This document shows, in pieces, positions 5,650-63,578 of a stretch of 64,000 nt of DNA. This DNA comes from Diphasiastrum complanatum. Taxonomy: Eukaryota > Streptophyta > Lycopodiopsida > Lycopodiales > Lycopodiaceae. Position 1 is the stretch's first letter. The number at the start of each line of letters is the position of its first letter. The position numbers and the translations under genes are program-made. The notes below the pieces were generated by a model. That model was not told the origin of the DNA. It did not search any database and worked only from the letters and a program-made list of their open reading frames with translations. The DNA lies in the NCBI GenBank assembly GCA_029204225.1, contig CM055092.1:87408537-87472536 (forward strand), given 5' to 3'.

Positions 5650-6512
5650 TGATAAATTTTACAGTTTTTAGGACAATAATGATTGTACTTTACAATCATA
5701 AAGAGTTATTGGTTGCTTAATCAATGAATCTATCAAGTTCTACACATAAGATCTTGATTTAGATTCACTACACTTGGATTTAAGCAAGAGCAATGGATCA
5801 ACACATCATTTTTTTAGTGAGAGCGGCATCACACATGTGGAGTACTGTCCACAATACGGCCTGCACCTGAAACAACAAGTACAATGATACTAGATAGCAA
5901 TCATACATAAAAATCACAAGACAGATGACTAGAAACCTCACAAAAGTGTAGAGTGCAAAAGTCTCATCAATCTTCTTAGCAAAATGATGATCCTTTTATG
6001 GATCAAGTACATCCATGAGTCTGGTACAGTCCAGCAGGCCTTCACACGTGTGAAGAGTGCCACATCACTCAGATCTATCCATTTGATCCATCCTTGATCC
6101 TTATCCAATAGTTGACCTTCTAGAATATGACTAAAATCCAAAAAGCTAGTCTCCTAGAATATAGGAATATTCCCTATAAAATAGAATCTAAGGAAAATGG
6201 TCAACTCTTATCTTCTAGTACTCTATACACACGTGTGAACATTCACTTGCCATGTGGGAGAATTTACTCATGCACATGCAAGGAAAAGCTAATTTGTAGG
6301 TGACTAGTCAACTTGACTAAAAACTAGTCATTTCATGTTCACACTAACTAGAATGATACAAAATCAATTTGGATATATACAAACATGAAAAGTACATCCT
6401 TTCACATGTGGGAACAGGCTCCACACGTGTGAAATCAGATCATCAACATATTCTAATGTTTGATCAATATTTACATGAACCAATGTCAAGTGAGAAGTGA
6501 CAATTTTCAACA
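5650..6512 (-). repeat. 5' LTR of the copia element
   Basis: 863 bp, TG...CA on the minus strand, aligned along its full length to 204-1069. It keeps the CACACGTGTG palindrome at 6043-6052 and several others that differ by single C/T or G/A changes from the 3' LTR copy. Confidence 0.95.
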
Positions 6513-6760
6513 TATCCCCCACTTCTCAAAAGGTGCTAAGGGAATAATTGGAGTAAGTGGCCAATGTGTCGTGAAGCTGGGTTTCCCCATCTTCTGACAA
6601 GCATCACATTTCTGAATGAATATTTTAACATCTCTATAGACAGTAGGCCACTAATATTTAGCATTAAGGATCTTTCTTGCAATATTTTTAAGAGCATAGT
6701 GACCTCCCGAATCTTCCTCATGTAATGCACTTATTACAGCGATCATCTCAATTGGTTCTA
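6513..6760 (-). pseudogene. Ty3/gypsy integrase, HHCC zinc-binding N-terminus
   Basis: The first five bases (TATCC) are the copia target duplication. The minus strand reads LHEEDSGGHYA, then KILNAKY-stop-WPTVYRDV, then CDACQKMGKP, the H-x6-H ... C-x2-C integrase zinc module. The first of the two Trp codons in the YWWP motif is TAG. It leads into PLAPFEKWG, which continues at 203. Confidence 0.88.
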
Positions 6761-9900: not shown

Positions 9901-10627
9901 CCCTAAAAGGGGAAGGGCCCACAGTGCCCTTACGGTAGGGACCGAGGATAGCTGCTTCCAATCCTGGTGGCTCGCTCGATTGCTCTGTGCTCTTCCAGCC
10001 AGTGGAAGTTTCCAGGCTTCCAGAGATATGGTAGAAAGATGGTAAGTTCAGCTTCGATAAGCTTGGTCTTGGTACAGTACTACGGTCATTCTCTCACACT
10101 ACTATCAAGACCGACTCTCCTAGAACAGTGCTAAAACTATGACATCCCGCATCCTTGCAAGATCCACTATTGGTAGGATGCAGGGCTTTGGCGCTCTAAG
10201 GATTTCATCCAACCTCTCTATCCCGAGCATGGATACATTAGGAGAAATCTCAACTCAAAAAGGGCCCCATAAGAAACTTGAACTTAGTGAGAGAATGACT
10301 AGAGAGATAAAGTAAAAACGGCAAGATTTGTTGCCATTTTTCTAGTTTCCGATGCTACCCACCATCTACCTGGTGTGGTTAACTCATTACAACTCAAATG
10401 AAATAAACACACCGCCTAAGCACACAGTCGACTAAGCACATGCCGCCTAAGCTATCAGTAGCGGGAGGAGAAGGAGAGGATAATTTTTTTATGTTCCCTC
10501 CAAAAAAATTTGAAAACATTTGAAAGGCAGATTATATAGCATGCATGTTTAATGATTTACAAGTTTGTTTTGGTTTCGTGTGAATCGTTTTTCTCGTTAC
10601 ATGATTTAGCTTGTTTGATTTTGAAAT
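9901..10627. other. No recognisable gene
   Basis: Higher GC than its surroundings up to about 10470, then AT-rich. I see no long ORF, LTR ends or primer site. It could be the 5' leader or LTR of the flanking gypsy element, or the left margin of the DDE-like gene region. Confidence 0.4.
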
Positions 10628-13257
10628 AATGGAAATGTTTGATCATATTGTGCTCCCACTTGATTGTGCTCCAATATATAAGAGATACACCAAAGCTGGT
10701 CAGATTAATGAGACTTGTAAGAAAGAACTTAGAGAAAAAAAATTGTAGAAATATTGATTTGTGGACAGATGGATCAATTTATTCCAATGATCCAAGTACA
10801 GGATGTTTTTAAGACTTTCAAACTACTAGCCGGTTATTGAATTTTGTGTGTAATGGACATAGTGGATTGTTGGGATACTGTCAAAAGTTGAGCCAATATG
10901 GGATGTATGAAGCAATGAAGCGAACACAAGTATTGGAGCATTTGTTGAATCAAACAAACAATGAGAAGGCAATACTTCAAGAAAATTTGCAAAAACAAAT
11001 ATACGAGAATACGACATTGAGCTCCAATATATTAGAATTGAAAACTATTATTACTGATCTTCAAATATCCAATCAAGTTATGTTGAGAGACGTTGAGAAT
11101 TTTAAAAGAGAAATCTTGAGTGCTATTGCTGAAGGCGAAGTTCTCAAGAGAAAATTAAATATAAGAAAACGCAAACGACTTCCAAAAAAAGACAGAGATG
11201 ATCTGTCTTCAAGAAGTGGAAACAAGAAGAAAAGGATTCAAGCATTCAAGTAAATATTAATTAAAAGAGCAAATGACATGCTTGCTATGTTTTTATGTGC
11301 TTGTTTTTCTAATGCTTGTTAATTTAATTCTTTATTATGTCTTGCAGACCATCTTTGGTGGCGAGAGAACATTATAAAGATTCTACGAGTATTGGAAAAT
11401 CTTTGGGTTCCATATTGTCATCAAAAACTACAAAAGAAATGTTAAATAATTCTCGTTATGACAGGATTAAGAATGATATTGCTGCAGTGATTATGCAGAG
11501 CATTCAACATGTCTTGGATGCAAGAGGTATCCAAGGAGCATGTGATGATTCAAGAATTAGTCATAAAGCATATATTCTATTGTTTAAAATTGTACAAGAA
11601 GCCTTTGCACATGTGAAGATTCGAAAGCTACCTCTTCCTCGTCCATTTAGAGTAAAAAAAACAAGATATTGTCTTAATGAGAGTATGCGTATGCTTATAG
11701 GTGAACCATTTCATATCAAGAAATTGTATACATGTGAGAGTGGAACATTGGAATACAATGAGTCCAACAATTTATTTTTGGATATTAACAAAGTAGTGGC
11801 ATACATGATTAAATATTACAAAATATTTGAAAGAGATGTCCAAGGAAAATTGATATTGGTTATCAAACTTGATGAGTCTGAAATTGTTAAGGGACAAAAA
11901 TTGGAATGGGTAAGTATCACCTTTATGAACAGAGCATTGAACAATACTGAAAATGATGCAGATGATTCCTCATTTAGTGTTCAATCAGAGAATGAAATAT
12001 GGTGGTTAGCAGCATTTCAGGTATATTTCAATTTTACTTAGTATTGTATTTTATCACCTAAGTTGCTGATGTCAATGTTCGTAACTTTGTATGTGTTTGT
12101 TATTTTTCAGGTTTTAAAAGAAGACCATGCTATCTTGTCATGGATTTTTTTGACATCAAATTATGCAAAGATTATTGAAGAGCATATGGGTGGAAACAAA
12201 ATATATGTGCCAAACTATGGCACGTTTCAAATTTTATGGCATCTTGCAGGTGATTTAAAGACACTGAAATGTATGTATAATGTTTCGCATGGGGCAAATA
12301 CTAAACACCCTTGTTTGTATTGTATGAAGAATTGTAAAGACTTGAATTTGACAAGATCACAAGTTGGTCCAACAAGAGATCGAGAGGATCCGAACTTTAG
12401 ACTTGTGATGGCAATTCCATTGATCAATGTTCACATATGCACATTGCATGCTGAGGTACGAATTATTGAAAAATTGATTTACAATCATATTTTGTATGTT
12501 TGGAATACCAAACCTGAATCGGCTTCTAAAATTGGATTTGAGAGATTAGAGCAAGTACTTTCAAAAGCAAGTTTGCACAAGGGAAATGTAAAAATAGAAA
12601 AAAGTGAAAAACTATCGGGTAAATCAGGGAACGTTCCAAACAAGCCATCTGTTGGAGGCGCAAAAGCTAGAAGGTTTTTATCCAATCACACTAGAAAATC
12701 TTCTATCGTGACATACAATGTTTGGAAAGACGTTGTTGCAGCATTAAAAGATTTTGTAGAGAGGGGCAACACAAGATTAAAAAAAAACTACAGTATTGCA
12801 AAATCTCGACAATTTGATTGGCATGTTGCGAAAAGAAAAGTTATCTGAAATTGACATTGCAAATCTACAAAAATATTGTGAGATATTTGTCAAATCGGTA
12901 GCAGAATGTTGAGGAGAGGATCATGTTACACACTATATGGTGATTCACTATTTGTTTTTGTGCAAAAATTGTTCTGCAACGTCATCTATTTGATTTTTGA
13001 TATATGTATTTTACTAGTTGCAGCATATTCTATTACATCACACCATATTTTTTGCAAAAGAATATGGAAGTATGAGCATATGGTCTTCTCAAGGTATGGA
13101 GAAATTGCATTGGCAAGCAAGAGGAGCTTTCATCGAGCAACCAACCATGGAGGATATAATTCAAAGAGATGCTACTTATATCAATTATTTCAATGGTTCT
13201 ACAGAAGAGCATAGTTTAGGTATCAAACCACATATTCAACAAATCTCATTTTATTGA
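10628..13257 (+). pseudogene. DDE transposase-like gene with coiled-coil N-terminus, copy 1
   Basis: Intron-containing gene. Exon 1 (from ATG 10628 to 11249) has a poly-A frameshift near 10735, an NGHSGLLGYC block, then about 100 residues of heptad-rich coiled coil and a basic KKKR end. Exon 2 is 11348-12020 and exon 3 starts at 12111, both with GT-AG borders that keep the frame. Exon 2 holds VIKLDESEIVKGQK. Exon 3 holds HLAGDLKTLK, then a C-x2-C (PCLYCM) and LHAEVRIIEKL. A last exon from 13024 has YGSMSIWSSQGMEKLHWQAR. The series Asp, Asp, C-x2-C, LH, Glu is the layout of RNase-H-fold DDE transposases with a zinc-binding insertion (Transib/RAG1, hAT and CACTA groups share it). A frameshift near 12820 and stops near 12910 suggest decay. 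Copy 2 is at 61982. Confidence 0.6.
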
Positions 13258-13326: not shown

Positions 13327-14100
13327 TTACATATCCTCATCGGTATCAAAGGTCAGCTGAGCAGTATGTTCATGAAGAAATTGTCTCCTCTCATATGGAT
13401 CCAAATGCCCAATTGATCTTCTTTTGCTCAACTCTATGTAACTTGTGTACACTGCTAAAGCAGATGATCTTTTGGGTACATTTTCAGAAACATAACCCAA
13501 TATTTTGATAGCTATATCCCTCTTCAGAAAAATGATTTTGTATGTACTGTTAGGATATCTATGTCCATCATAGGATAATGCCTTTATTGCCATTACTATA
13601 GTTCCTACTTGTGAATAAAAGCTGTCATGTTGAATACAAATTTCATTTTGTACAAAGTATTTCAGGTATTGGCACAATGTTGAATCCTTATGGCCAACAA
13701 CACCTCAGACACCTCCTCTTCTCGTAGCAAAATCATCAACTTCAATTGTATCCTGCAACATAAATACGAAAATTTGTAATCAGTTAAATTTTCATATGGA
13801 TTTTCATTGAATACAATGCTAAATATGATTATAACAGAATAAGAAAATAAAAATCACCATGTCATGCTGATCATACTCCAACAATCCTTTTCCACGCAAG
13901 TCATGCCTGACAAGAAACGTATCCTCAGAAAAAAAGTATTGCTCTAGAGGAGGATATCTTTTTTGAAACTCAATGAACTCCTCCTCACTAGGAGAATTTG
14001 TGCCATAGGCTAGACATTGTTGCCTTGTAATTTGTAAGGCCTGCTCTCCAAACTTCCAATGACCTTCATCTTGATAGTCAATCCCTTCAATTAAAGTCAC
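13327..14100 (-). pseudogene. Unknown two-exon gene, convergent with the DDE-like gene
   Basis: Exon 1 runs from ATG at 14100 to 13858 (80 residues, acidic, with EEEFIEFQKRYPPLEQYFFSEDTF). A GT at 13857 and an AG before 13752 bracket an intron of about 105 bp. Exon 2 (13752-13327) encodes about 140 residues with one in-frame TGA early on, then a clean frame ending in FDTDEDM and TAA. I do not recognise the family. No signal peptide or membrane segment is seen. Its 3' end lies about 70 bp from the DDE-like gene and its 5' end 170 bp from the H3-like gene, so it sits inside the same cluster. The internal TGA could be a mutation or mark a missed short intron. Confidence 0.5.
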
Positions 14101-14269: not shown

Positions 14270-14905
14270 ATGGCAAGAACTAAACAAACCGCGCGTCCAA
14301 AGTCTATTGTCCCGTCTGTTGGTCAAGCCACATCATCCTTGCATCCTGCAGCTGCTCGACCTCGTGCTAGGGGAACTGGCAGAAAACCTCGCCCATGGTT
14401 CAGAGATATCAGAAGGTTACAGAAGTCCGCCAACCTTCTGATACCAAAAGCTCAATTCAATCGAATAGTGAGGGATGTGACAAGGTCTTTCTCCGTGGAT
14501 GTCAGATGGTGCGTGACTGCAATTGAAGCATTGCATACAGCCTATGAAGATTATCAGATTAGGTTTTTTGAGGATACTGTGCTTGCTGCTGTATACGCAA
14601 AGCGGGTGACTATCATGCCCAAGGATATGGAGCTTGTGTTTAGGCTAAGGAATCAGTACGAGCAGGTATTCAAGACACCTCCACCTCCCCGACCAGCTCC
14701 CGGGGTTAGATCCCCTTATCAGAGGAAAAGAAAGCAGTCAAGGCCAGTGAGGTTAGGAACCAGGGCCAAAAAAAACCAAATCAAGCTAGTTGAAGACCAG
14801 CCAACTCATGATCAAGCTGGGCCATCTAGGGTGGAACCTGAAGAATCCCCCTCTCCTCCACCTCCGCCTAAAAGAAGATTAGTACTATCAGATGAGACCG
14901 AGTAG
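14270..14905 (+). CDS. Histone H3-like protein with an 80-residue C-terminal tail
   Basis: 211 codons, intact. I start at the second in-frame ATG because the N-terminus then reads MARTKQTAR, the H3 start after Met removal. Residues 43-131 follow the H3 fold in register: FRDIRRLQKSANLLIPKAQF (alpha N), NRIVRDVTRSF (alpha 1), SVDVR in loop 1 with normal H3 length, a divergent alpha 2, then FFEDT and AKRVTIMPKDMEL as in H3. Unlike H3 (about 135 residues), it continues with a Pro-rich stretch (137-145), a basic KRKQSRPVRLGTRAKK block and an acidic/Pro end. N-terminal residues 10-40 differ from H3, and the usual K9/S10 context is lost. Loop 1 lacks the lengthening common in CENH3. It probably binds H4 and DNA if expressed. 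A related, broken copy is at 43.6 kb. Confidence 0.85.
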   Translation: MARTKQTARPKSIVPSVGQATSSLHPAAARPRARGTGRKPRPWFRDIRRLQKSANLLIPKAQFNRIVRDVTRSFSVDVRWCVTAIEALHTAYEDYQIRFFEDTVLAAVYAKRVTIMPKDMELVFRLRNQYEQVFKTPPPPRPAPGVRSPYQRKRKQSRPVRLGTRAKKNQIKLVEDQPTHDQAGPSRVEPEESPSPPPPPKRRLVLSDETE

Positions 14906-15061
14906 ATGATAGGCCAAACCCAATTGATTCTTGATACACTGAAAGGTCAAGAGGGTCTTCCTGTCACTCCTGGTCTAAATTTTTTACTAGATTACTCTTC
15001 TGATAGTGACCAGTCTTTGGATGTGCCGAGACGCCCACAGAGGATCTGGATAGATATATAA
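14906..15061 (+). pseudogene. In-frame continuation of the H3-like ORF beyond TAG
   Basis: After the TAG at 14903-14905 the same frame stays open for 51 codons to TAA at 15059, starting ATG. It encodes an acidic, Asp/Ser-rich segment (DYSSDSDQS) similar in character to the SSESDAGESNSD linker in the 43 kb relative. The TAG may therefore be a nonsense mutation in a longer gene, or the true end. Confidence 0.5.
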
Positions 15062-15263
15062 CAAAATCAATTGTTCTTTTTCCCTATAGCCCATCTCAAT
15101 CAATAGGAATTGTATATATAAATTTAGCTGTTCAATACTATGTCGATCCCATGCTGACATTTTTTTAATTCTGAGTGATATATAATTTTTGACAAGTACA
15201 TAGCTAAAAAAATAGATAAATTAGGTGGTCACTTTGTATTCAATATATATTCAGCCTCATATA

Positions 15264-16110
15264 TGAATTATTTTAATCCTGTTATCTGTAAGGAGTTATT
15301 GAATAAGTCTTCGGACCTCACAGACCCAGTTGTCGAAGCTGGACTCAATTATTGGGTTTAGTTGTACAAAAGCGACAGTGTTCCTGGTGTTTTTGTGCTT
15401 ACTCAATTTTTTTGTCACCTGCTTAAGGACGAGCAATCAGCTGCATCATGTTTTTTACGACGTATGCCATGCGACTCCAAAATTTTTGTTGTACCATACT
15501 GTCAAAAGTATGTATTGTTTAATTTGAGTTGTATGTATTGTTTTATTATATGCTTTATATGTATTTCTTCTCCTAAGTCATATCCCCGGTCTCGATTGGT
15601 AATATTGTCTGATCCAGGTGACCGTATCGCTGGTTTTCTAAGTAGAAGGGGGTGGCCTATATCTGGGTACGTGACAGAGGTGGCTTCTGTCAGATGCCAA
15701 AATCTATCTTCTATGAGTACATATGCTTCGAAGTAGTTGTACTCCCCACAATGTTGTGTTCTACGTAGAGTGTCTCCAGGGCATAGATACTAGTAGAGTT
15801 ATGGGGTGAAAAAATAGTAGCATGGAGGTCCTCTCTACCTTAGTTGACAGATGTCACTACGTGCAGGTTGGAACTGACCCTCTTCCTCCATCATACGGGG
15901 TCCAACTCATTGTTTCTATTATCTCACTTCTAGACCCCTACTTTGACATTAGGTTATGTGTCTGCTGAAGTTATAGGACTGTTAAGGGTATATCCATTGA
16001 AATTGTTCAGTTTTTATTGGACACCCTAGACACTATTCTTCTAAGTGGGGTAGGTCAAATGAAAAGTGGTGAATACATTACGCGTGCCATCATGTTCGCT
16101 GGACGGTAGC
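15264..16110 (+). pseudogene. Decayed Ulp1-like (C48 protease fold) region downstream of the H3-like gene
   Basis: The frame from 15264 reads SSDLTDPVVEAGLNYW, a stop, then VFVLTQFFCHLL and KIFVVPYCQ, followed by a GT donor at about 15505. Block by block this matches SEISDAIVEAG, IFVASPFFMGAV and KFYLIPYKN with a donor at the same place in the 43 kb gene, where HWSL follows. The His-containing exon cannot be found here. Another open stretch (15845-16110, one TGA) has YVQVGTDPLPPSYGVQLIV, which may correspond to the Gln/Cys end of the protease with Tyr at the Cys position. Recognition depends on the 43 kb relative, so the call is tentative alone. Confidence 0.5.
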
Positions 16111-32554: not shown

Positions 32555-32576
32555 CTCCCCGACAATGGCGCTAAAA
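32555..32576 (-). other. Gypsy primer binding site
   Basis: On the minus strand TTTTAGCGCCATTGTCGGGG follows the LTR end CCCACTACA. It closely resembles the TGGCGCC...GCCGGGGA primer region of plant Tat/Athila gypsy elements. Confidence 0.75.
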
Positions 32577-32577
32577 T

Positions 32578-33355
32578 TGTAGTGGGTTTCTTTCCGAGCC
32601 TATCCTCAACCCAAGATCCAAGCAATCTAGCATCAAGGAGATGAAGTTAGTTGTCACGCGTAGGTTCGTTCCCATGAGAGCGATAGCATATCTCAGATTT
32701 CAGCATGAATGGAAGATCCACATCTAACTCTAACATCCATTAAATTAACACTACTCTATTAACCCTACGATCCACAATGATAATAGCTTACTCTCTCTCT
32801 CTCTCTCTCCCCCTTTCTCTCTCACAAAAAGTATAATAAAGATAAATCCCAATAACATTCAGATCCAACAATTAGCAAACATAACAAAAGTATGATAGAT
32901 GGAGGAAAGAGTTAGAGAGCAAGGACATTCACAAATCCATTCCATAAGAGAACCAATCAGCTTGTATTGAAATGAGGATATGAACATGAAGAGCAACTCG
33001 AGTTTGCCCCTATTTATAGTGGAGAAGAGGGCCTTAAAATCCTATTGGCCCATTTCTACCTCCCTAATTATTCAAACTTAAAAAAGAGTGGGAACCCATT
33101 CAAAATTGGAGGGAACCAATTTGAATTTGAATTTGAACCAATTTTGGTGGGAGTCCCAACTTTTATTTACTAACTTGATATTTAGGCCCTGCGACATTAA
33201 AAGTCCCACAAAAAGGCCTAAAGTCCTTTTATTGACTTTCTAATTATCAAATAACTATGTGATCATCAGGTTGGACTTACACACGTAGGGTGCCAGATCC
33301 CTCTCACTTATTAACTAGGTTTAGGGTTGCCTTCGGATCCACAAAGCCTCCAACA
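32578..33355 (-). repeat. 5' LTR of a minus-strand gypsy element
   Basis: 778 bp, starting TGTTGGAGGCTTTG at 33355 and ending CCCACTACA at 32578 on the minus strand, followed by a primer site. It contains a (CT)n run near 32790. It is the reverse complement of 36109-36850. Confidence 0.85.
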
Positions 33356-36108: not shown

Positions 36109-36850
36109 TGTTGGAGGGTTTGCAGATCCCAAGGCAACTCCAATCATAGTTAATAAGTGAGAGGGATTTGGCACCTTGCGTGTGTAAGTCCAACCCAATG
36201 ATCACATAGTTATTTGATTAGAAAGTTAATAAAAGGACTTTAGGCCTTTTTGCGCGACTTTTAATGTCGCAGGCCTAAAAGTCAAGTTAAGGAATAAAAT
36301 AGGGTTCCCACCAAAATTCATTTTCAAATTAGATTCTCCAATTAATGATTTGGTTCCCTCCACTTTTTAAATATTTAGGTTAGAGTTTACCAATAGGAAT
36401 TGGGGTGCCCATCTCCTCAATCCACTATGTAAGTGGTTAATTCGGATCATTGTACATGTTCTCTCTTCATTTCAAAACAAGAAGGTTGGCCCTCTTATGG
36501 AATGGATCAAGAATGTCCTTGCTCTCTCTCTCTCTCTCTCTTTTCCTCCATCTCTCGTGCTTTTTTTGTGTTTGCTAATTGTTGGATTTGATGCTTATTG
36601 GGATTGCTCCTTTTTATGCTTTTTGTGAGAGAGAAAGGGAGAGAGAGAAGAGTGAATGGATGTAGTGTTAATGCTAGTGTTAATTCTTAGTGTTCATGAT
36701 GGATCTTAATGTTAAAATGCACATGCTGGATTTTGGATTATGCTATCACTCTCATGGAAACGAACCTCCATGTGACAACTAACCTTGTCTCCTTGATGCT
36801 TGTGTGCTTGGATCTAGGGTTGAGGCTAAGATAGGAAATAGCCCACTACA
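36109..36850 (+). repeat. Gypsy LTR, plus orientation (inverted relative to 32578-33355)
   Basis: 742 bp, TGTTGGAGGG...CCCACTACA, matching the other LTR in reverse complement including the (CT)n run (36521-36542). No primer site follows, so it is a 3' or solo LTR. The flanking 5-mers (GATAC and ATCTA) do not match, which argues against a clean solo LTR. Confidence 0.85.
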
Positions 36851-37472
36851 ATCTATCCATTTGTGCACTATATTGGAGATATCTTGAAATTTTGTGTATA
36901 ATGCTTTGATATATGGTCCATTGTGTTCACACGTGTGAAATACAATAGCTTAACAACAACTTCATGTTATGATATGTTTGATGTTTGATCAATATCTTAT
37001 TGAGTTTGCATCTCTTTCATTAAGTAGATGTTGATTTTCTACATTGTCATTGGTGCTAATTGTGTTGTCTTTGATAGAATTCTGATTTCAACGTGGCTTA
37101 CTAGATTTGGCTGATTTTAATTGCATTAGGAAGGCTTCATTAGAGGCTACAAGATTCCATATCAAGTTTGTGACAATTGCATGTAGAATTTGGAAGATTC
37201 AATTTTTTTGTGATTTTGTCAAAACCCTATTTTTGATTGGATCTCTATTTTTTGAGGTTGCTAGACTTCAGTAGAATGTGTTTTAATCTTAGGAAGTGGC
37301 AAGATTCATTAGATTTCTTCATTCTATGTGTTGATTTGCTAGTTATAAGTGCTAGAAGAGAATTGATAGGTTCCATATCTTTGTGATTTCTTTTTGAAAA
37401 CATTTGTTGTTGTTCAAAAGAGTGCTTTGTGCATTGGAACAAGTTGAAAGAGAAAGATCAATTCATTGCAAC
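36851..37472 (+). repeat. copia LTR fragment and leader
   Basis: No ORF. It contains GTTCACACGTGTGAAATAC near 36930 and matches the inverse of 30850-31090. It runs directly into the gag start at 37473. A primer site is not recognisable. Confidence 0.55.
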
Positions 37473-41816: not shown

Positions 41817-43621
41817 TCAGATCAATTCTTGCCGAAATCTATATACATCATCAGGAGTATACGGCTCAAGGGTGAACTGTCATCACAAAATACGAGAATC
41901 AGCAAATTACAAACAATGATAGTAATAAAATATGAATTAGAATGAAATGAACTACAAATGAATAGAATATTACCTTTTCAATATCTACATCCGTTTGTAG
42001 ATTATACAATTCAAAAAATAGCTTCGTATTGTACAAGATGAACCATGCATAACTAAAAGCGTCATTTTGTTGTACACACTGCATATATAGAACGAAAATC
42101 AGTAATATTATGATAGGAATTTTATTTATGCTATGATGATAAATTTGAATTAAAAAAGAAATACATGCATATTAGAGATAAATTGAATATACCTTGAGAG
42201 ATTTAATGGTTATATCTCCAACTGAAGTTGCCGTTGTCGGTATTTTCTGAACGGCATCATGAAGTAGACAATCGAATTCTCTATGTGTATTTGCAGCTGA
42301 GTTTAATTTTACACATAGAAAATTTGATACTCCCTCCTTATTTATCTTTACAAAAAGAATGTTTAGGCTCCAATGCCGACTGCAACAACCAAGATACAAA
42401 TATCGATAAATTCATATTTATGAAAAAATATCGTTCTTATTAAAGCAATGAGGCATACAACAATCCATATTAAAGCAACAAAAACAAAAGAGAAATCCTT
42501 ACTTATTTTTATATGGAATCAAATAGAATTTTGCCATAGGACTGCACTCGATAAAATAGACAGCCTTCTCAAAATTGGATTCTTTCGCCTTTACCGCTCC
42601 CATGAAAAATGGACTAGCTACAAAAATTGTACCATGGGAATCGAAACTAATATTATTCTGCAAAAAAGAAACTCCGGCCTCTACTATTGCATCTGAAATT
42701 TCTGAGGTCTTACCTTTTAGCTTGGCACAAAATTTGGGACCTAATCTAAAACTTCTACGTGTATGTGAAAGAAAAAAATCAAAAAAGTTGCCGAGAAGAT
42801 CAATTTTGTTAGCTAGGTAGGCCTCGTATTGATTGTAATGGTCAAAATAAAAAAAAAACCTGGGCTGGATCATATGGAATTATCACAAAAAAATTATGTA
42901 CAGGAGTAGAAACAGAAGTGGAAACAATATTTACAGATTTTTCTATTATTTTGTCTAGCTCCTCTTGGGTAATCAACACTTTTGGTGATGAAACCTGCTG
43001 AGGAGCTGGACGAATAACATGAGGAGGAAGGGGTGAAGATTTTCGATCTGAGTTAGATTCTCCAGCATCTGACTCAGAGCTCAAGAAGACACGGGGGTCT
43101 CTTGGCTGAGATAACTCTAGAAGGAAGGGAAGCAACTGGCCTTCGAGATCCAGCCTTCTTGGGGATAGGCTGCTTTCTCTTCCTCCTAGAGATAGTAGAC
43201 AAATTGGTTCTATCCAGAGGCAGGTCTCTAGAGGTGCTAGCATTATCAACATGCAGACCAGACTATCTGTCCCTAAGTCTTTTGAGAATGATGAAATCCT
43301 TTGGCATGATGGTGACGCGCTTACCATGCACTGCCAAAAGACACGAATCCTCAAAAAATTGGGACATAAAATCTTCTACAGTACCTTGCAAGGCCTATGG
43401 TTGTCACGACAAAACGAACATCCAGCCCAAACTGACAGAGTGACATTCTGTACAGATCGACCAAAAGGAGCTCTGGGGATCAACAATTCAGTTGATCTCT
43501 GGAGTTTTCTGATCTTTCTCAGCCAAACCTGCTTCTTGCCACAACTACAGCCAGTACCAGGAGGAACATGTGATTGGGATGGCTGTACAGTGGTTATGGC
43601 ATTGGGCAATGGATTTATTCT
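41817..43621 (-). pseudogene. Histone H3-like plus Ulp1-like fold, one decayed intron-containing gene
   Basis: From ATG 43621 the N-terminus is MVKNKSIA. After a frameshift come WLRKIRKLQRSTELLIPRAPF, then LDVRFVVTTI, and in a third frame EDFMSQFFEDSCLLAVHGKRVTIMPKD, together the H3 fold. A basic RRKRKQPIPKKAG tail and an acidic SSESDAGESNSD linker follow. After a homopolymer frameshift near 42855 comes a Ulp1-like domain: SEISDAIVEAG, IFVASPFFMGAV, KFYLIPYKN. Introns with GT-AG borders separate exons ending 42503, 42379-42193, 42078-41974 and 41876-41817. These give RHWSLNILFV (catalytic His), CVKLNSA where Asp is expected, QQNDAFSYAW where the catalytic Cys would be (Tyr instead), and a closing RFRQELI. 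It is therefore a broken gene, and its protease triad would be inactive. Confidence 0.68.
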
Positions 43622-44161: not shown

Positions 44162-44776
44162 ATTTTTGTCAAAATATTGAAAAATCTATCTAATGTTGTG
44201 AGTATGGGTCCTAAAAATGCCAAAGATGAATTGAGCTCTTTTGGCTTAGTAAAGACCCATCTTAGAATAAAATACTCAAGGTAGGTAGAAGTAGAGACTC
44301 GAGCTACCATAGGAATTGCCATTTGTACTTTACATGCCACATTTAATGCATGAAAAGACTAGGTGGCACAATTAGACATAGTGAGGTGGCTTGAATAAGT
44401 CTAGATAGCTTGAGAGGTGGATCCACAACTCCAATTCAACTCAAAGTAGGAGAAGAGCCCATGGATCTATATATATGTGATGTACTCTCATTGAGAAAAT
44501 GATGAAATTTGTGTGTAATGCAAATTTGGAGACAAGGTCTTTGTGCCCTCTCTCTCTCCACGAGTTTTGTACTTGCTATTTTCTCTCTCTAGTCGAGTAG
44601 AGATATTTATGATGATTTGTCTTATGTTTTGTTGACAGATCTTGCTTGTAACACAATAATATTGCTTGTATGATCAGCTTTCCTATTGACTACCAATGCT
44701 AGTCTGATTTTTATGGTGTTATTGTGCTTAGGAGATCAAAAATACATGTGTAGGGCATCCCACATGTGTGAATTCA
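44162..44776 (+). repeat. 5' LTR of an internally deleted copia element
   Basis: Ends CACATGTGTGAATTCA at 44776, three bases before a primer site. 44405-44776 is repeated at 47012-47385. The left end is uncertain (a TG at 44154 or 44167), because it abuts the previous LTR fragment. Confidence 0.8.
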
Positions 44777-44791: not shown

Positions 44792-45527
44792 CTACCTAAG
44801 TTTTACAAGCAAATCTAATCAAAAAGTTTGTAGATATGATCAGATTTCAAGCTAGAATTGTCTAGATTCTACCTTCTAGCTAGTTTGCAATTTTTTTGTG
44901 ATTTTGAACTTCAAACCACATTGAATGGGCCTGATCAGGTACTGTACGGAATTTCAGGTGCTGGTACGTGTGAAATCTACCCATTTTTAGATTGGTGGTT
45001 CTCTCTCACCTCAAATCCAAATTCAAGCAAATTAGCCCACTAGAAAGCTAAAAATGTGTAGAATCGGATGCAATTTGAATCATGACAGTTAGATAAGCCA
45101 ATCAGAAGTTATAAGCTTTTGAAGAGCCATAGGTAGGGCGCCTAGATTTGTGGCAAATCGTGTGTACATGTCATTTATCGCTTAAATGATCACAAAGTCA
45201 TCCAGAAGTTGCACAATCTCATTTATATGTGATTCAGACAAAATTTATACGTTCTAGGCAAATTGTTTCATACAAATAGTTGTATTTGAGTCAATTTGAC
45301 ATTTTTGGAATATCACACGTGTGAAATTCAAAGAACCATAACTTTTGCCATACCATCTTTTTTGATGATTCAAATCTTGTTTTAGAGAGATTGTCAAGCT
45401 AGTGAGATCTATTTCACAGTTTTTTGCTAGGTCTTACATAGGATTTGGTTCTGTACCCTTGATTGGTTCCTATAGTGAGAAGATAGGCAATTCTTTCATC
45501 CATCTTTTTTGATTTCCATCATTCTTT

Positions 45528-47015
45528 ATGACTTCAATGGGTGTCTTTCTATTAGAAGCAAGTGAAAGATTATCAACCTCGAATTACTCAATCTGGAAGG
45601 TTAGAATGGGATTTGTCTTAATACTACAAGATGTGATGGATATTATACTTGGCATTGAAGAAGAACCACAAATTCCTCAAGAAATTCCAAAGTACAAAAA
45701 GAGAGCCAGGATGGCTCTGCATTATATTAAGATGAATGTTTCAAATGACATCTTAAGAGAAATTGGTGCTTGTACTAATGCCAAAGATGCTTGGGATACC
45801 CTCAAGTCTATCTATGAGGCAAAAAATACTTCTAGACTTCTAACACTAAGAAACCAAATTTTTCAAAGTGTACAGAGAAGTGATGAATGTGATTCAGCTT
45901 ATGTAATGAGAGTTAAAGACCTCCATAGAGAATTGTCATGCATAGGAGACTCCATCAACCAAAATGAACTTGTTCAAGTCATACTTAATGGGTTAAAGGA
46001 GGAATATGACAACCTTGTTCAGAGTTATGCCATGAAGGAGGAGCTACCAAGTTTGGAAGCACTCCTAAGTGTGGTCATTTCTGAAGAATCAAGACAAGAG
46101 TATAAACTCTTGAAAATGGAGAGACTGTCTCTCAACATTGATGGTAAAGCTCTCTTTACCAAAGACAAGCACAAGACAAGAAGTAAGAATCAACACCAAT
46201 TCTCTTCAAACAAGAACAATCTTATTTGCAAGAAGAAAGGAGATGAGGATGAGTCCTCTCAAGCTTCCACATCCAAAAAGAAGAAGAAAAACATCAAGTG
46301 TTTCTTTTGTGGCAATAAGGGGCATTATGCCACCAATTGCTTCAAGAAGAAGAGTCAATTCGAGCAAGACAACATTTCTAATGAAGAGAAGGAAGACGCT
46401 CATGCAAGTGATGAAGAGGGATCTCTTATGGTCTCGAGTTTTTCTTCATCACCTTTCAAGAAGGATGGTTCATGGTATATCGATAGTGGAGCTTCCTCAC
46501 ATATGTGTAGCTCCAAGTATTCTTTTTCATCCATGTCACCTTATGAAGGAGCCAAGAAGTCCATCTACATAGCAAATGATCACGAGTGTGCTATTGAAGG
46601 CATAGGGACCATTCCCTTAAAGCTTTCTTCATCAAAAGTTCTTTCTCTGTCTAATGTACTTTTTGTTCCCAAGTTAACAAAAAATCTTATGAGTGTTGGG
46701 CAATTGTTTGATAGTGGACTAGATGTGAATTTCAATATTGATACATGTACAATCAAGAAGCATGATGAGATCCTTGCATTTGGGTCTAGATATGGTGGAA
46801 TCTACAAGCTTGATCCCAAAGAGTATGCTAACTCTTCCGATAGTGCTTTTGCTACTCATATGTCTTTGGAGGAACTATGGCATAGAAGGTTGGGACATCC
46901 TAACTATAGATCTATGGTGTCCATGGTCAAGAAAGCCAAAGCTATTGGCTTGCCTAATCTTATCTCCAAGAATTTCAAGCCATGTGAGGCTTGTGCCATA
47001 TCTAAGCCTCAATAG
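45528..47015 (+). CDS. copia gag-protease polyprotein, intact 495 codons, truncated pol
   Basis: One uninterrupted frame. Residues 1-200 are copia gag (ASERLSTSNYSIWKVRMGF near the start, then RLLTLRNQIFQSV). A Lys-rich stretch leads to the knuckle CFFCGNKGHYATNC (about 257-270), intact. The aspartic protease motif SWYIDSGASSHMCSS starts near 313, then TKNLMSVGQLFDSGL. The integrase zinc region LEELWHRRLGHPNYRSM is near 445 and is followed by CEACAISKP and a stop made by the join to 3' LTR sequence. It should yield Gag, nucleocapsid and protease without integrase or RT, so the element could move only with enzymes from another copia. Confidence 0.93.
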   Translation: MTSMGVFLLEASERLSTSNYSIWKVRMGFVLILQDVMDIILGIEEEPQIPQEIPKYKKRARMALHYIKMNVSNDILREIGACTNAKDAWDTLKSIYEAKNTSRLLTLRNQIFQSVQRSDECDSAYVMRVKDLHRELSCIGDSINQNELVQVILNGLKEEYDNLVQSYAMKEELPSLEALLSVVISEESRQEYKLLKMERLSLNIDGKALFTKDKHKTRSKNQHQFSSNKNNLICKKKGDEDESSQASTSKKKKKNIKCFFCGNKGHYATNCFKKKSQFEQDNISNEEKEDAHASDEEGSLMVSSFSSSPFKKDGSWYIDSGASSHMCSSKYSFSSMSPYEGAKKSIYIANDHECAIEGIGTIPLKLSSSKVLSLSNVLFVPKLTKNLMSVGQLFDSGLDVNFNIDTCTIKKHDEILAFGSRYGGIYKLDPKEYANSSDSAFATHMSLEELWHRRLGHPNYRSMVSMVKKAKAIGLPNLISKNFKPCEACAISKPQ

Positions 47016-47385
47016 CTTGAGAGGTGGATCCACAACTCCAATTCAACTCAAAGTAGGAGAAGAGTCCATGGATCTATATATATGTGATGTACTCTCATTG
47101 AGAAAATGATGAAATTTGTGTGTAATGCAAATTTGGAGTCAAGCTCTTTGTGTCCTCTCTCTCTCTCCACGAGTTTTGTACTTGCTATTTTCTCTCTCTA
47201 GTCGAGTAGAGGCATTTATGATGCTTTGTCTTATGTTTTGTTGATAGATCTTGCTTGTAACACAATAATATTGCTTGTATGATCAGCTTTCCTATTGACA
47301 ACCAATGCTCGTTTGATCTTTATGGTGTTATTGTGTTTAGGAGATCAAAAATACATGTGTAGGGCATCCCACACATGTGAATTCA
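47012..47385 (+). repeat. 3' LTR remnant of the deleted copia element
   Basis: Matches 44405-44776 almost base for base and ends at the same ATTCA. The first 240 or so bases of the LTR plus all of integrase core, RT and RNase H are deleted. The join occurs inside ATAGCTTGAG. Confidence 0.9.
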
Positions 47386-47778: not shown

Positions 47779-48196
47779 TTGGCTCAGATTTTCACGCAAA
47801 TTTATGACTGCTTTGCCGGATATCGATGTCAAGCACGCCGCTTGCTCTTATTACCCATTCGTTCACTATTTTGCGCCTGGATCCGATACTGCATCATCCG
47901 ATATCGCATTCAAGCGCTCTTCGCATCTCTTTTTTTTCTTGCTCTTTGTTCTTGCGCTCGGATCCGATACTTCAACTTGAAATATCTCTCTCGAGCGCAC
48001 GTTGCCTTGCCGTACTTGCTTGATCTGGGTTTCGCGCCTGAGAGCAATATTTAAAACATTAGTTCTATTGTTTTTGTTTAATATGTCTAATTTTGAATCT
48101 AGTTTGCTTTCTTTTTTTCATGAATTTGGTATTACCGATAGGTTGGAGTACTTCAAATCTTTTTTTTATCTTTTACCTATGGCTAAACACCAGTGA
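47779..48196 (+). other. Possible transcript start region with short frames
   Basis: Downstream of the TATA box are a 91-codon frame (47779-48054) and a short frame MSNFESSLLSFFHEFGI (from 48083). The GGATCCGATACT phrase recurs twice (47880 and 47960). No domain is recognised. It may be the R-U5 part of an unidentified LTR rather than a gene. Confidence 0.3.
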
Positions 48197-48349
48197 AGTT
48201 TGATGTGACTAAACTAAGGTGCATTCATTTACATGGAAAGTAGTGCGGGCAGATGCGTAAATGATACTATCATTATTTTATAGTTATTTTTCTCTCTCCT
48301 ACATGGCATTTCTTATAGGGCCCTCTTTGGGCCCATATTTTCTCTAATG

Positions 48350-50030
48350 ATTTTTTGTGTGTCTTTCGTGTGTGTCTCCATTTTCGAGGTTTCTTCTTGT
48401 CTTTTCGAGATCTTTTCTAGTTTTCTTTGTCACTTTATCTTTTTCTAGCTCTTTTTTTTTACTTGTTGTTTTCCACTTTTTTGTGACCTTTTTTTCAAGT
48501 TTTCTTCGCGATTTCATTCTTTTTTGAGCCTTTCTCGTTTTTTTTTTTGTTTTTTCGCGTCGTTTCGTTTTTAAGTTTTATTTGCCAATTTTTCTAGTTT
48601 CTTTCGTGTGCGTCTCCATTTTTCGTGTGTCTTTCGTGTGTGTCTCCATTTTCAAGATTTTTTCTTGTCTTTTCAAGAGCTTTTCTAGTTTCGTTCACGC
48701 TGTTTTTCGAGTTTCTTTCGTGTCTCTTTCATTTGTCGAGATTTGTTTGTGAATTGTTTGAGAATTGTTTTAGATTTTTTTTTCTAGATTTGTTCGAGAT
48801 TTTTTCTATGGTTCTTCTAGATTTGTTCTAGGTTTTTTCTAGGATATTCGTATTTTTTAAGTCTTTTCAAGACTTTTTAAAAAAATTCTAGGATTTTTCG
48901 ACTTTTTGCGAGATTTTTTTGTGTTCTTTGAGATTTTTCTAGGATTTTTCGAGTTTTTTCTAAAGCTTTTTAGAATCTTTTCGTGTTTTGAGATTTTTCT
49001 AGGATTTGTCGAGATGATTCGAGTATTTTCGAGAGTTGTCTAAATTGTTCGTATCTTTTCGAGTTTTTTTTGAGAATCTTTTCTAGATTTTTTGAGCTTT
49101 GTCATAGTTTTTCGAGCCTTTTTTGAGGCTATTTTCTAGATTATTATCGTGTTTTTTGAGATTTTTTAAAAACTTTTTTCAGCCTATTCACATTTTTTGA
49201 GCCTTTCGAGGATTTTTGAGTCTTTTCTAGATTTTTCTAAAATATTTTCGTGTCTTTCAAGATTGTTTTCGAGAATATTTTCGTGTTTTTTCTAGATTAT
49301 TTGAGTTTTTCCTAGTCTTTTTCGCGCTCCTTCAGTGTTTGAAGTCCATTCCATTTTTCTAGATTGTTTTCTAGATTTTTCTAGAATTTTTCAAGAATAT
49401 TTTCATGTTTTGCTAGATTGTTTTCTAGATCTTGATGTCTTATTTGAGATTTTTTAGATATTTTTTAGTCTTGTCTAGATTTTTCTAGATTTTTTGTGAT
49501 TGTTGAGCCTTTTCGAGAATTTTCGAGTTTTTTCTAGATTTTTTTTTTGGGTTTCTTAATTGTTTTTCTCGGTTTTTTTAAGCCTGTTTGTAATTTTTGA
49601 GCTTTTTCTAGATTTTTCTAAATTGTTCATATTTATTCAAGATTTTTCGAGCCTGTTCGAGTTTCTTCTAGATTTTTTTCGTGTATTTTGAAATTTCTCT
49701 AAATTTTTTGAGTTATTTTCGTGTCTTTTGAGATTTTTTCTAGAATTTTTCGAGAGTTTTTTTCAATTGTTTTTGTGTTTTTCGACTTTTTTTTCTAGAT
49801 TTTTACTTGATTTTCTGAGATTTTTTTCTAGATTTTTCGAGCAGTTTTTCAAGAATTTTTCGTGTTTTTTTCGAGATTTTCATCTAGATTTTTCGAGCAG
49901 TTTTCGAGAATTTTTCTAGATTTTTTCGAAAAAAAATTTGTGTCTTTTTGAGATTTTTTTACATCTTGTTTCGAGATATTTTTTGTGCCTTTTCGAAATT
50001 TTTTCTCGTCGATTTTTGAGCAAAAACAAC
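48350..50030. repeat. T-rich low-complexity tract, copy 2 (1.7 kb)
   Basis: Almost entirely T on the plus strand, broken by TCGAG, TCTAGA and CGTGT motifs, without a fixed period. It opens with the phrase shared with the 39.3 kb tract. Apparent Phe/Leu/Arg-rich ORFs here reflect composition. Confidence 0.85.
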
Positions 50031-60300: not shown

Positions 60301-61981
60301 TTTTTCACATTTATAATGCAATTTTTTTTACACTTTTGTTGTTTGGTGGAATGTGCATGTGAACAACCAATGACAAGATGCCACATAGCACATTCCATCG
60401 GAAAGCTCATGTGTTATGTGTCAACATTTGATTGGCTGATTATGAGAAGAATGATCACCTAAAATTTTGGTTGTAAATCCACATGAACATTGTGTGGGGG
60501 GAGAGGTGCCTCCAAAATACAAAGGAAATCCGAGCACTTGGCATTACGGTGTAACCTTCACAAGGCAGACTTTTGAAGAAGGGACTCCACTGTCATCGTC
60601 CAAACTTCAAATTTGTTTATAAAAGTTGTCCACCACTAAATGACAATAACACTACACAAATAGGAAAAATCTACATATGTATGGGCATAAAAGAAATTCT
60701 TCAATGGTATATATCTTTGGATGTTTAACGTCACTGGCAAATTTAACTAGCTCCCCAGCTTGATTTTAGTAGTTTGATCCAAAAACATGTGCATTTCTAT
60801 CCCCCATTGAGAGCACTATATTTATCTTATCCAATGGCAGTTTGGTTCACGTGAAAATTGATAATTTTTTAGTCTACAAAGAAAGTAAATAGTTGCACCA
60901 CAATTTATACCAATTTGTTCGCTAATTTGTTACATATTTACAAATCTTCTTATCGCGACAGACACTTAGTTAAAGTTATGAGTAGCATGCATCAGTCCAC
61001 AATGTTTTGAATCATGTTGTTTTGTTCATGTTCATAGATAATTGATTGTAAATCAATATGTCGAGTTAGTATGGACTATTGGCATCACAAGTACATGATT
61101 CCAATTATAACATGCAAAGAATCATGAATTCTTGTTCCAAATCCTCCCGTAAACTTGCATGTTAGGAACATAAGGTGGAGTTGCAGTTGCTTCTACTTTA
61201 ATTTTGTGAGAAAAATTAAGCTATGAATGTAAGTAGAGACCAATCCCCTCCTTGGAACTGTTATTCTTTGCAAGAGTCTGTGTAAGGCTGTGGAAGAGTT
61301 GTGTGTTGCATGTCTACAACCATGGATTATATTTCCCTGCAATGGCAGCACCAAAAATGGAGTTGAAACGTTATGGTCATTGGCACCAGCAATGGTGGTC
61401 GTTGGATTAGAGGAGTTCTCAATATCAAAAAGACCCTTTAAGGAATGCCATGTAGGATATAGAAAAATATCAAAATAAAAAAAAACAATATTGTTTATTT
61501 GCTTGTCCCCACCACTCTCGAGGCCTCCCCAACTCCCAATGATCTAACCACAGTGTCTATACTCATAGTTAAGAACTGTTAACAGTTCGCAGTTTAACTT
61601 GACTAAATTCAAAAATATTTTCTCCATTGGTTACGAAAAGGGCAATATTTTCACTGGATCTAGAATATGACCGCCATCCCCAAATTCGAATCAGGAAAAA
61701 TTGCAAAATGTTTACATTTGCATTCCTTCCATGAGAATGGAAATATGGGTGCCATCTCCAATTATGAACGCCATCATCACTTTGGAATGAAAATATGAGC
61801 GCCAACTACCTATTGGAATGAAAAAAGAAGCAGCATTTCCAAATTTGAATCAAGCATACAAGCATGGAGATTGGATTGATCCTACCTAGTATATAATATA
61901 ATCAAAGATGAGTATTTTGTTTTGCTTCATAGAATATGGTCATAGTACTTTGATGCAACTGATTACTCTATTATTTTTTTT
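60301..61981. other. No recognisable gene
   Basis: AT-rich, short frames only. It immediately precedes the second DDE-like gene. Confidence 0.5.
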
Positions 61982-63578
61982 ATGATGACATTGTATCATC
62001 TACATGTGGATATCCCTATTGATTTGGCACCTTTGCAGAGAAGAGGAGGCAAAGGAATTCAAATATCTGCTGAGGATCGTTCTCGTTACAAGGCAGAAGG
62101 AAAAAAAAACTTGGATTTGTGGATAGAAGGAAAAAAAAAAACTTGGTTCTTCAATAACTCATTTAGTTACATGGATATGCAATGGGCATAGTGGATTACT
62201 AGGATATTGTGAAAGATTGCAGAACCATGGAAGACAACTATATATGAATAAAGTTTACTTTTTAGAAGGTGAGTTGATTTGGATATCCTCTTATTGTCAG
62301 AATAGAGATTGTCATCTCCAAAAGACGTTAGAAGAAAATGAACAACTTAAAAAAAATAATGAATCATTACAGAAGATAGCAATCAATATCAAATCAGAAC
62401 TAGAGCAAATGCAATCAGTCTTACAGTCTATTCGTATTGAAAACTTACAATTATTGAAGGATGTGGATTTGGCAAAGAAGAAGGCTGAAAGTAAGAAGCA
62501 AAAGCGACAAAGTTACAAGGATATTCAAACGCTTTCAAAAGGAGGTTATCGAAATAGAAGGATCTGTGCATTCAAGTAAGCATATTCTGAATTTTGCAAG
62601 TTTTTCAATGACATTTGGATTTAATTTCAGCTATGGTGATATTCTGTTAACTATCTATTTTTTTTGCAGATCTGCATTAGTAGCTCCTCGGAATATTAAA
62701 GACAATGCTTCACTAGGAATGTCATTGGGCACAATATTGACTTGCAAATCCACTGAGCGTATCATGATGAACAATAGGATTTCAAATGTAAAGTGTAGAA
62801 TAGTAGAGTCTTTGATGGTGGACATTCAAAAAAATTTAGATAAGACTATAGTTCAGGGTGCTTATGATTTTGTAGGTATTAGCAGGGAAGCATATGCAAC
62901 AATGTTTAAACTAATTAGAGAAGCTTTTAAGCAAGTTCAAATTAGAAAAGTCCCAATCCCTAGGACATATCACTTGAAGAAAGAGAGGGATACATTAAAC
63001 ATAGGTATGCATAAGATCACTGGAACTCCATTTCATATTGAGATGTATGAAACTGATGGAAAATCGATATTCTATAATTCATCAAACAATTTATTTGTTG
63101 ATCTAAATTACTTGCTGAGATACATCGTCACATTCTATGATATACCTATGAAAAGGTGAATGGCAAAATAATCATAGTACTTAAGCTAGATGAGTCAGAA
63201 ATTGTGAAAGGGCAGAAGATGGAGAGGGTTAGTATAACTCTCATGAATGGTGCTCTATCGCAAACATAGAACCAAGAAGATTTCAAATTCAGTGTCCAGT
63301 CAGAAAATGATATATGGTGGTTGGCAGCGTTTCAGGTAACTAGCCTCATTATTACATTACATTCATTAAATAGTATTAATACATTTTAAACTAATTCTGA
63401 TTAATTCTTTGGATAGGTGCTAAAAGAGGATCATCATATATTATCATGGATATTCTCAAGGACATCTTATCCTAGGATCATCAAGGACCATATGGATGAA
63501 AGACTTCTCAATGTTCCAGGAATTGGAGACTTCAATGTTTCATGGCACTTAGCAGGTGATTTGAAAACATTGAACAAA
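61982..63578 (+). pseudogene. DDE transposase-like gene, copy 2, cut by a copia LTR
   Basis: Same order as the gene at 10628: DLAPLQRRGGK start, a poly-A frameshift near 62140, CNGHSGLLGYCERL, coiled coil, basic end. The exon 1 donor is in the same codon phase (GCATTCAA then GTAAG) and the acceptor TTTGCAG lies near 62670. Then SALVAPRNIKDNASLGMSLGTIL, a frameshift near 63160, LKLDESEIVKGQK, FSVQSENDIWWLAAFQ, an intron at the same codon, VLKEDHHILSWIF and WHLAGDLKTLN. There, at 63578, gene sequence stops and an LTR starts. The first two catalytic Asp candidates are conserved with copy 1. The Cys pair, LH and Glu lie beyond the break. Confidence 0.6.

Follow-up and report, generated by a model that had tools for sequence, protein, structure and literature searches.

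A histone H3-like frame of the clubmoss Diphasiastrum complanatum as the probable truncated remnant of a transposon accessory gene

An open reading frame that begins exactly like histone H3, continues well beyond the histone core and lies beside a transposase-like gene raises the question of whether it is an aberrant histone of the host or a gene belonging to a mobile element. The frame is found in a stretch of 64,000 nucleotides (the window), placed by a whole-genome search at C1:87408537-87472536 of the 1.74 Gb assembly of D. complanatum. Taken as a whole, the best explanation, considered likely, is that it derives from the accessory gene of a multicopy DNA transposon, which would encode a fusion of an H3 domain, a linker and a C48-type peptidase domain. 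The narrower question of what the frame, the element and the fusion are can be answered with high confidence.

The 211-codon frame at 14270-14905 on the plus strand starts with MARTKQTAR and holds an exact AKRVTIMPKD, both as described in an earlier sequence-only reading of this DNA. The likeness to H3 proposed there goes far beyond chance: the frame matches the Pfam Histone family with an E-value of 2.1e-24 and H3 chains of the PDB with a best E-value of 1.7e-25, and its product is predicted to adopt an H3 fold. The H3-like part comprises the first ~130 residues, and its loop 1, already described as ordinary, has the canonical H3 length in the alignment, both in the window copy and in the copies of subfamilies A, B and C aligned with it. 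The features of the gene are the following.

14270-14674, plus strand: H3-like domain with an ARTKQTAR N-terminus (Pfam, PDB, alignment, fold prediction)
14675-14902, plus strand: Pro/Lys/Arg-rich linker, previously described as a tail; in relatives it leads on to the C48 region
14903-14905, plus strand: premature stop of the window copy (23-row comparison)
14270-15507, plus strand: broken first exon of the putative H3-C48 fusion gene (relatives read through; donor in relatives)
15161-15507, plus strand: N-terminal part of a putative C48 (Ulp1-like) domain, interrupted by another stop (tblastx against the second copy of the window, tblastn, relatives, Pfam on relatives)
15566-15570, no strand: right limit of homology of the window copy, which has neither the catalytic half of C48 nor the right end

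The sequence-only reading regarded this gene as intact, with a novel C-terminal tail, a view that had to be rejected because 22 of the 23 subfamily-A rows compared (some of them near-identical pairs) read through 14903-14905, and only the row of the window itself has a stop there. Further on, the window copy exhibits a frame change near 15020 and another stop before 15400, and the donor GT of its first exon is read from the sequence at 15508. Since the frame of one relative, A_C13, stays open into the C48 region, the supposed tail is the opening stretch of the linker. Thus, the roughly 80 residues after the core are present as claimed, but they are the start of the linker of a longer protein and not a histone tail; nor are they explained by intron read-through, the tail being open coding sequence in other copies. 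As homology stops at 15566-15570, the window copy lacks its right end, and no right-end motif of the element was found for it; the segment 15580-15736, considered as a C48 exon of this copy, was discarded on account of the same limit. Judged by these comparisons, the window frame is very probably a nonsense-truncated copy of a transposon accessory gene.

In the relatives, a Pro/Lys-rich linker and a second domain follow in the same frame, which ends at an intron donor; three of the 11 copies checked (A_C13, B_C14, and B_C6) have no interruption between the start and this donor. The intron is followed by HHWSL or KHWSM and, one exon on, by SCGW with a preceding Q. The Pfam family Peptidase_C48 (cut-off 20.7 bits) matches the own spliced letters of B_C6 with 27.9 bits (E 2.5e-6) and B_C289 with 20.7 bits, exactly at the cut-off, while A_C13 stays below it with 16.8 bits and the own letters of B_C14 give no match. 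No C48 match was returned either by Pfam for the first spliced models of the window or by phmmer against the PDB. The catalytic motif of these peptidases, His, Asp, and Cys with a Gln before the Cys, is represented in B_C6 and A_C13 by HW and by SCGW with its preceding Q; by alignment, the position of the triad Asp reads Asn. Read from their frames, which establish the fusion in subfamilies A and B and not in C, the A and B copies encode an H3 domain, a linker, and a C48-type domain in a predicted product of about 600 residues. A role of the SUMO-cutting type may be suggested for the C48 domain by its family.

A second copy, which the sequence-only reading had passed over, is situated in the same window and holds the following remains.

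43143-43558, minus strand: second H3-like copy, broken, in two frames and with a stop codon (tblastn)
42503-42822, minus strand: C48-like exon 2 of the second copy
42193-42379, minus strand: C48-like exon of the second copy with RHWSL, the motif of the catalytic His
41974-42078, minus strand: exon of the second copy with QQNDAFSYAWF, where the position of the Cys is Tyr (alignment)

The exons located 3' of this second H3 copy match the stretch that follows the 14270-14905 frame; Pfam gave no C48 match on the second copy itself.

The gene is far from being a single-copy gene of the host. Of 6841 candidates in the genome search, 150 were scored and all of them match at E <= 2.1e-38, with identities from 100% down to 48%; by a hand count, 36 of these 150 copies have no stop in the matched part. 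Copy numbers include identical or near-identical pairs—such as L006/L007, L009/L010, and L005/L013, among others—whose members share a chromosome or are split between a chromosome and a small contig; such pairs point to segmental duplication or assembly haplotigs. Among the database matches listed, the nearest relative is P0009 (O6H91_14G014700, 137 aa), which is 52% identical and most likely represents another copy in the same D. complanatum genome. The protein searches with H3 were limited to proteins whose length is 0.55-1.75 that of the query, with the best 120 of 2031 and of 3076 hits listed, and a fusion of ~600 residues falls outside that length range. Seven further proteins (P0002-P0008) were rejected as relatives because each gene model contains two H3 sequences; they are probably mis-annotated or tandem fusions, and three of the seven are named centromeric H3 (from sunflower, Solanum dulcamara, and Cynara). 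An endogenous virus was likewise rejected, as nothing was returned by tblastn against phage records or by IMG/VR scans for which the H3 pair and the transposase alignment served as queries.

The surroundings of the H3 gene are those of a DNA transposon, and the DDE-type gene that the sequence-only reading had named as a neighbour was indeed found upstream of the H3 frame.

10236-10280, plus strand: left end of the window copy, a terminal inverted repeat starting with CATTAG (start of DNA homology)
10684-13257, plus strand: decayed transposase gene of the RAG1/Transib-fold family (tblastn with relatives, splicing, family search, family fold)
13327-14100, minus strand: third gene of the element, broken by a stop (reading frames)
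61979-63575, plus strand: second, distantly related transposase copy near the right edge of the window

The transposase gene has introns at 11250-11347 and 12021-12110 and is broken by a frame change near 12780, with stop codons after it. Pfam found no family above its cut-off, and no hAT match, on two exons of this broken gene. The model built for the family matches RAG1, and a RAG1-type RNase H fold is predicted for it. Across 34 transposase relatives, the CxxC columns are more than 90% conserved and the H, C, and H of HxCTxH are invariant, with the spacing H(4)H; the search for such relatives scored the 7997 candidates sharing most words. The product of the third gene, GIDYQDEG...LDPYERRQFLHEH, holds no known domain above cut-off, and reading frames similar to it are seen by eye upstream of H3 in A_C17 and B_C289.

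The elements share the ends CATTAGGGG...CCCCTAATG, which lie within longer imperfect inverted repeats, and the DNA homology of the window, A_C17, A_C5, and A_C13 begins at 10236. Among the 150 H3 matches listed, one lies upstream and on the same strand of 17 of the 40 best subfamily-A right ends (out of 647), at 2.5-4.1 kb in 16 of them and at 11.4 kb in one. The best 40 of 231 subfamily-A left ends likewise include 17 with a listed H3 match downstream (0.8-5.8 kb in 16, 11.6 kb in one), and the best 40 of 820 subfamily-B left ends include four with a listed match. An end on the wrong side or strand within 12 kb was found for one, two, and none of the 150 listed matches (A right, A left, and B left ends, respectively). 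In five cases the H3 gene is enclosed between both ends, which are 9.0 kb (C3), 6.8 kb (C17), 9.1 kb (C2), 15.7 kb (C1, 29.2 Mb), and 7.8 kb (C1, 31.9 Mb) apart. Four H3-bearing copies, those of the window, A_C17, A_C5, and B_C12, have the DNA of the transposase and of the opposite-strand gene in common (despite their labels, B_C12 belongs to subfamily A and B_C5 to subfamily C). The H3 gene thus sits at a fixed place inside inverted-repeat elements, and the proposal of an H3-like protein on a mobile element is upheld by the side and strand of H3 relative to the ends, by the shared transposase region, and by the five enclosed cases.

Several observations weigh against the preferred explanation. 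In subfamily A, 23 of the 40 best right ends and as many of the 40 best left ends have no listed H3 match nearby. The 150 matches listed also include none in an element on C8 whose two ends lie 7.0 kb apart, and no single copy is known to be complete in all three genes. The target-site duplication of Transib is 5 bp; in the flanks of four elements no consistent duplication was found. Flank matches occur in C3, at 2 and 4 bases, and in C8, at 2 bases, within AT-rich repeats, with none in C1, C2, and A_C17. An 8-bp duplication, the length typical of hAT elements, was found neither in C3 and C8 by script nor in C1 and C2 by eye.

An alternative view would be that a histone variant gene of the host—CENH3 or another H3 variant—came to lie beside a transposon by chance. 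In plant CENH3 as in the element H3, the protein starts with MARTK, LLIP is present, and position 84 is W. The tree joining the element family with CENH3, computed with CENH3 sequences other than the host's own, is not rejected (p-AU 0.503). In the tree, five element sequences form a clade of their own (support 100/100), separate from all H3 and CENH3 sequences included. However, the 150 scored matches, the fixed place within inverted repeats, and the C48 fusion all argue against a host gene, as does loop 1. Plant CENH3, for which the comparison draws on part of one study (PMC4357034), has a lengthened loop 1, whereas the aligned A, B, and C copies show no such extension; the loop of the annotated relative P0009 is four residues longer. 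Moreover, the element H3 differs from plant CENH3 in that its residues 5-8 are as in H3, it is multicopy and it is fused to C48. A chance neighbour from the host is therefore considered very improbable.

If the gene belongs to the element, it could still be a mere passenger, that is, a captured H3-type gene of the host carried without use. There is a precedent in Pseudocercospora fijiensis, where a hAT transposon captured H3, and an amplified H3 is also named for Pyrenophora tritici-repentis (both in the portion of PMC6710886 consulted). The decay of many copies, visible in the small share without a stop in the matched part, would fit such a fate. On the other hand, the conservation of the gene is uneven. 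The H3 core of A_C13 shares 0.68-0.71 identity with that of B_C6 and B_C14, compared with 0.46-0.51 for the linker and 0.36-0.39 for C48; with the C copy the values are 0.61, 0.36, and 0.19. Non-synonymous distances follow the same order (core 0.27-0.29, linker 0.50-0.57, C48 0.62-0.66). Between subfamilies, synonymous changes have reached or almost reached saturation, so no dN/dS ratio is claimed at that depth; within subfamilies, three single pairs give core ratios of 0.19-0.30. The C48 part of B_C14 and B_C6, one pair with few changes, has a ratio of 1.58, which indicates no constraint and counts against the preferred explanation. The H3 core diverges far less between deeply diverged subfamilies than the linker or C48, which a useless passenger would not lead one to expect, and neither would the in-frame C48 fusion of subfamilies A and B. 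The fungal precedent also concerns a captured housekeeping H3, whereas the clubmoss H3 is strongly altered. A passenger is thus improbable.

In the tail, K4 is kept in all 61 copies compared and K9 in none of them (0/61). Most of these copies were picked for a match beginning at one of the first two residues, a choice that biases the set towards a retained N-terminus. The set consists of 28 A, 12 B, and 21 C copies, left from 67 after removing four duplicates, one copy without the N-terminus, and one unclassified. None of the five aligned sequences has K14, K18, K23, K27, or K36, and residues 9-36 hold a mean of 0.86 (A), 0.08 (B), and 0 (C) Lys, compared to six in H3. ARTKQTAR is exact in just 15 of the 61 copies, and position 10 is Lys (PKS), a possible substitute for K9, in 22 of the 28 subfamily-A copies; both observations speak against the preferred explanation. 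Regarding the fold, D123 is kept in all five sequences and both H113 and R129 in four, the window copy having Tyr in place of H113, while R63 is Pro and F84 is Trp in the element H3 domains. Of 20 DNA-contact positions of H3, nine are identical in all five sequences (among them R42, R52, R69, R72, R83, and R116), or 12 counting R/K exchanges; the figure of nine out of 20 is a further point against the preferred explanation.

For this pattern a mechanism of anti-silencing, acting through the H3 module and the C48 domain, may be proposed, although only tentatively and at rather less than an even chance. The fusion protein would be imported like a histone, and its H3 core would pair with H4 or be loaded on chromatin, where the H3K4-type tail would be read or methylated as active chromatin while offering no K9 or K27 for silencing marks. 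With K4 kept and K9 and K27 lost, any chromatin that the protein enters would no longer be able to bear the principal silencing marks. The C48 domain, brought to chromatin in this way, would remove SUMO from chromatin factors, and the element would resist silencing or open its targets. In its boldest form, this would be a transposon with a histone of its own, loadable into nucleosomes, with the activating K4 tail but neither K9 nor K27, and fused to a SUMO protease, that writes silencing-proof chromatin on itself, an idea to be regarded as speculative and fairly unlikely. Of the two functions offered by the sequence-only reading, targeting of the H3-like protein to chromatin is possible, while nothing in the analysis speaks for packaging of the element's DNA.

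The main rival to anti-silencing is a role in transposition itself, in which the H3 domain would target or assemble the transposition complex: it would tether the transposase to nucleosomes or chromatin, choosing targets or aiding synapsis, and C48 would remove SUMO from the transposase or local factors. The conserved histone fold and pairing residues would suit this role, and the same kind of simple or satellite-like repeat on both flanks of three out of four elements (C3, C8, and C1 at 31.9 Mb) would fit targeting. However, these are just four flank pairs, repeats are common in such genomes, and the C8 element is the one with no H3 among the matches listed. This role is therefore judged somewhat unlikely, if less so than the boldest form of anti-silencing. 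In a further alternative, the ARTKQTAR tail would act as a decoy that titrates or engages the readers and writers of H3K4, with the protein staying outside nucleosomes. It could draw on the contrast within the tail, since identity at residues 2-9 (eight positions only) is 0.88 between A_C13 and B_C6/B_C14 and 0.75 with the C copy, versus 0.15-0.25 and 0.46, respectively, at residues 10-36 (20-26 positions). Nevertheless, a decoy leaves the conserved histone fold with its pairing residues unexplained, and it is about as doubtful as the passenger, by a slight degree less so.

Some components of the proposed fusion gene are familiar from other transposons: captured genes, anti-silencing proteins, and some Ulp1 domains in transposons are already known. 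The fungal hAT-H3 is, like the clubmoss element, an inverted-repeat DNA transposon with an H3-like sequence in many copies. According to the part of PMC6710886 used here, it combines hAT with a copy of a housekeeping H3, inactivated by RIP except for the original; by contrast, the clubmoss element has a transposase of the predicted RAG1/Transib fold, and its H3 is strongly altered and joined to C48, with a core less diverged than the rest of the gene. Among plant DNA transposons, Ulp1/C48 domains in accessory proteins are also found in the Kaonashi (KI) Ulp1-like genes of MULEs, known alongside the VANDAL/VANC anti-silencing proteins (PMC6117577 and PMC13317346, in excerpt). KIU-carrying Vandals have been linked to hypomethylation of related elements, and the precise function of the Ulp1 domain is called unknown in the available text of PMC13317346. 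Unlike these, the clubmoss element has a RAG1/Transib-fold transposase and an N-terminal H3 domain. In grapevine and rice, CACTA elements that combine Tnp2 and ULP1 domains share the Ulp1 domain as well, and are without a histone domain as described in the section of PMC2528002 consulted; CACTA, Transib, and RAG1 have transposase motifs in common (PMC12730594, in extract). The same extract reports fungal DNA transposons with TET/JBP dioxygenase genes, some of the CACTA-Mirage-Chapaev-Transib group, which like the clubmoss element carry a gene acting on an epigenetic mark; their enzyme works on DNA methylation, whereas the clubmoss element would bring an H3 domain and a SUMO-type protease domain. 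Apart from the fungal hAT cases, no H3-Ulp1 protein or transposon-encoded histone was found in a partial search of the open PMC literature (titles and abstract openings).

If the anti-silencing mechanism were true, it would constitute a new route, mimicking the substrate of silencing marks rather than editing the marks, and the protein would be a natural separation-of-function H3, with a K4 tail without K9 and K27. Its boldest form would mean a transposon that encodes a working histone variant and is mobilised by a RAG1-related recombinase of a plant. The element would also be an instance of a RAG1/Transib-fold transposase accompanied by two extra genes in a plant.

The remainder of the window holds other repeats. 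Rfam (at gathering thresholds) and ARAGORN returned nothing over the window. Direct repeats at 204-1080 and 5650-6523 (96.8% identical) flank copia-type coding sequence on the minus strand, and another pair at 44396-44776 and 47003-47385 (95.0% identical) surrounds a copia gag at 45513-47015. An inverted repeat of about 0.75-0.8 kb (32576-33355 and 36109-36852) has arms that are 76% identical and lie ~2.8 kb apart. Finally, 48894-49929 is a T-rich, degenerate array of 10-11 bp repeats of the TTTTTCTAGA/TTTTTCGAGA type, and the AT skew over 48001-50000 is -0.49.
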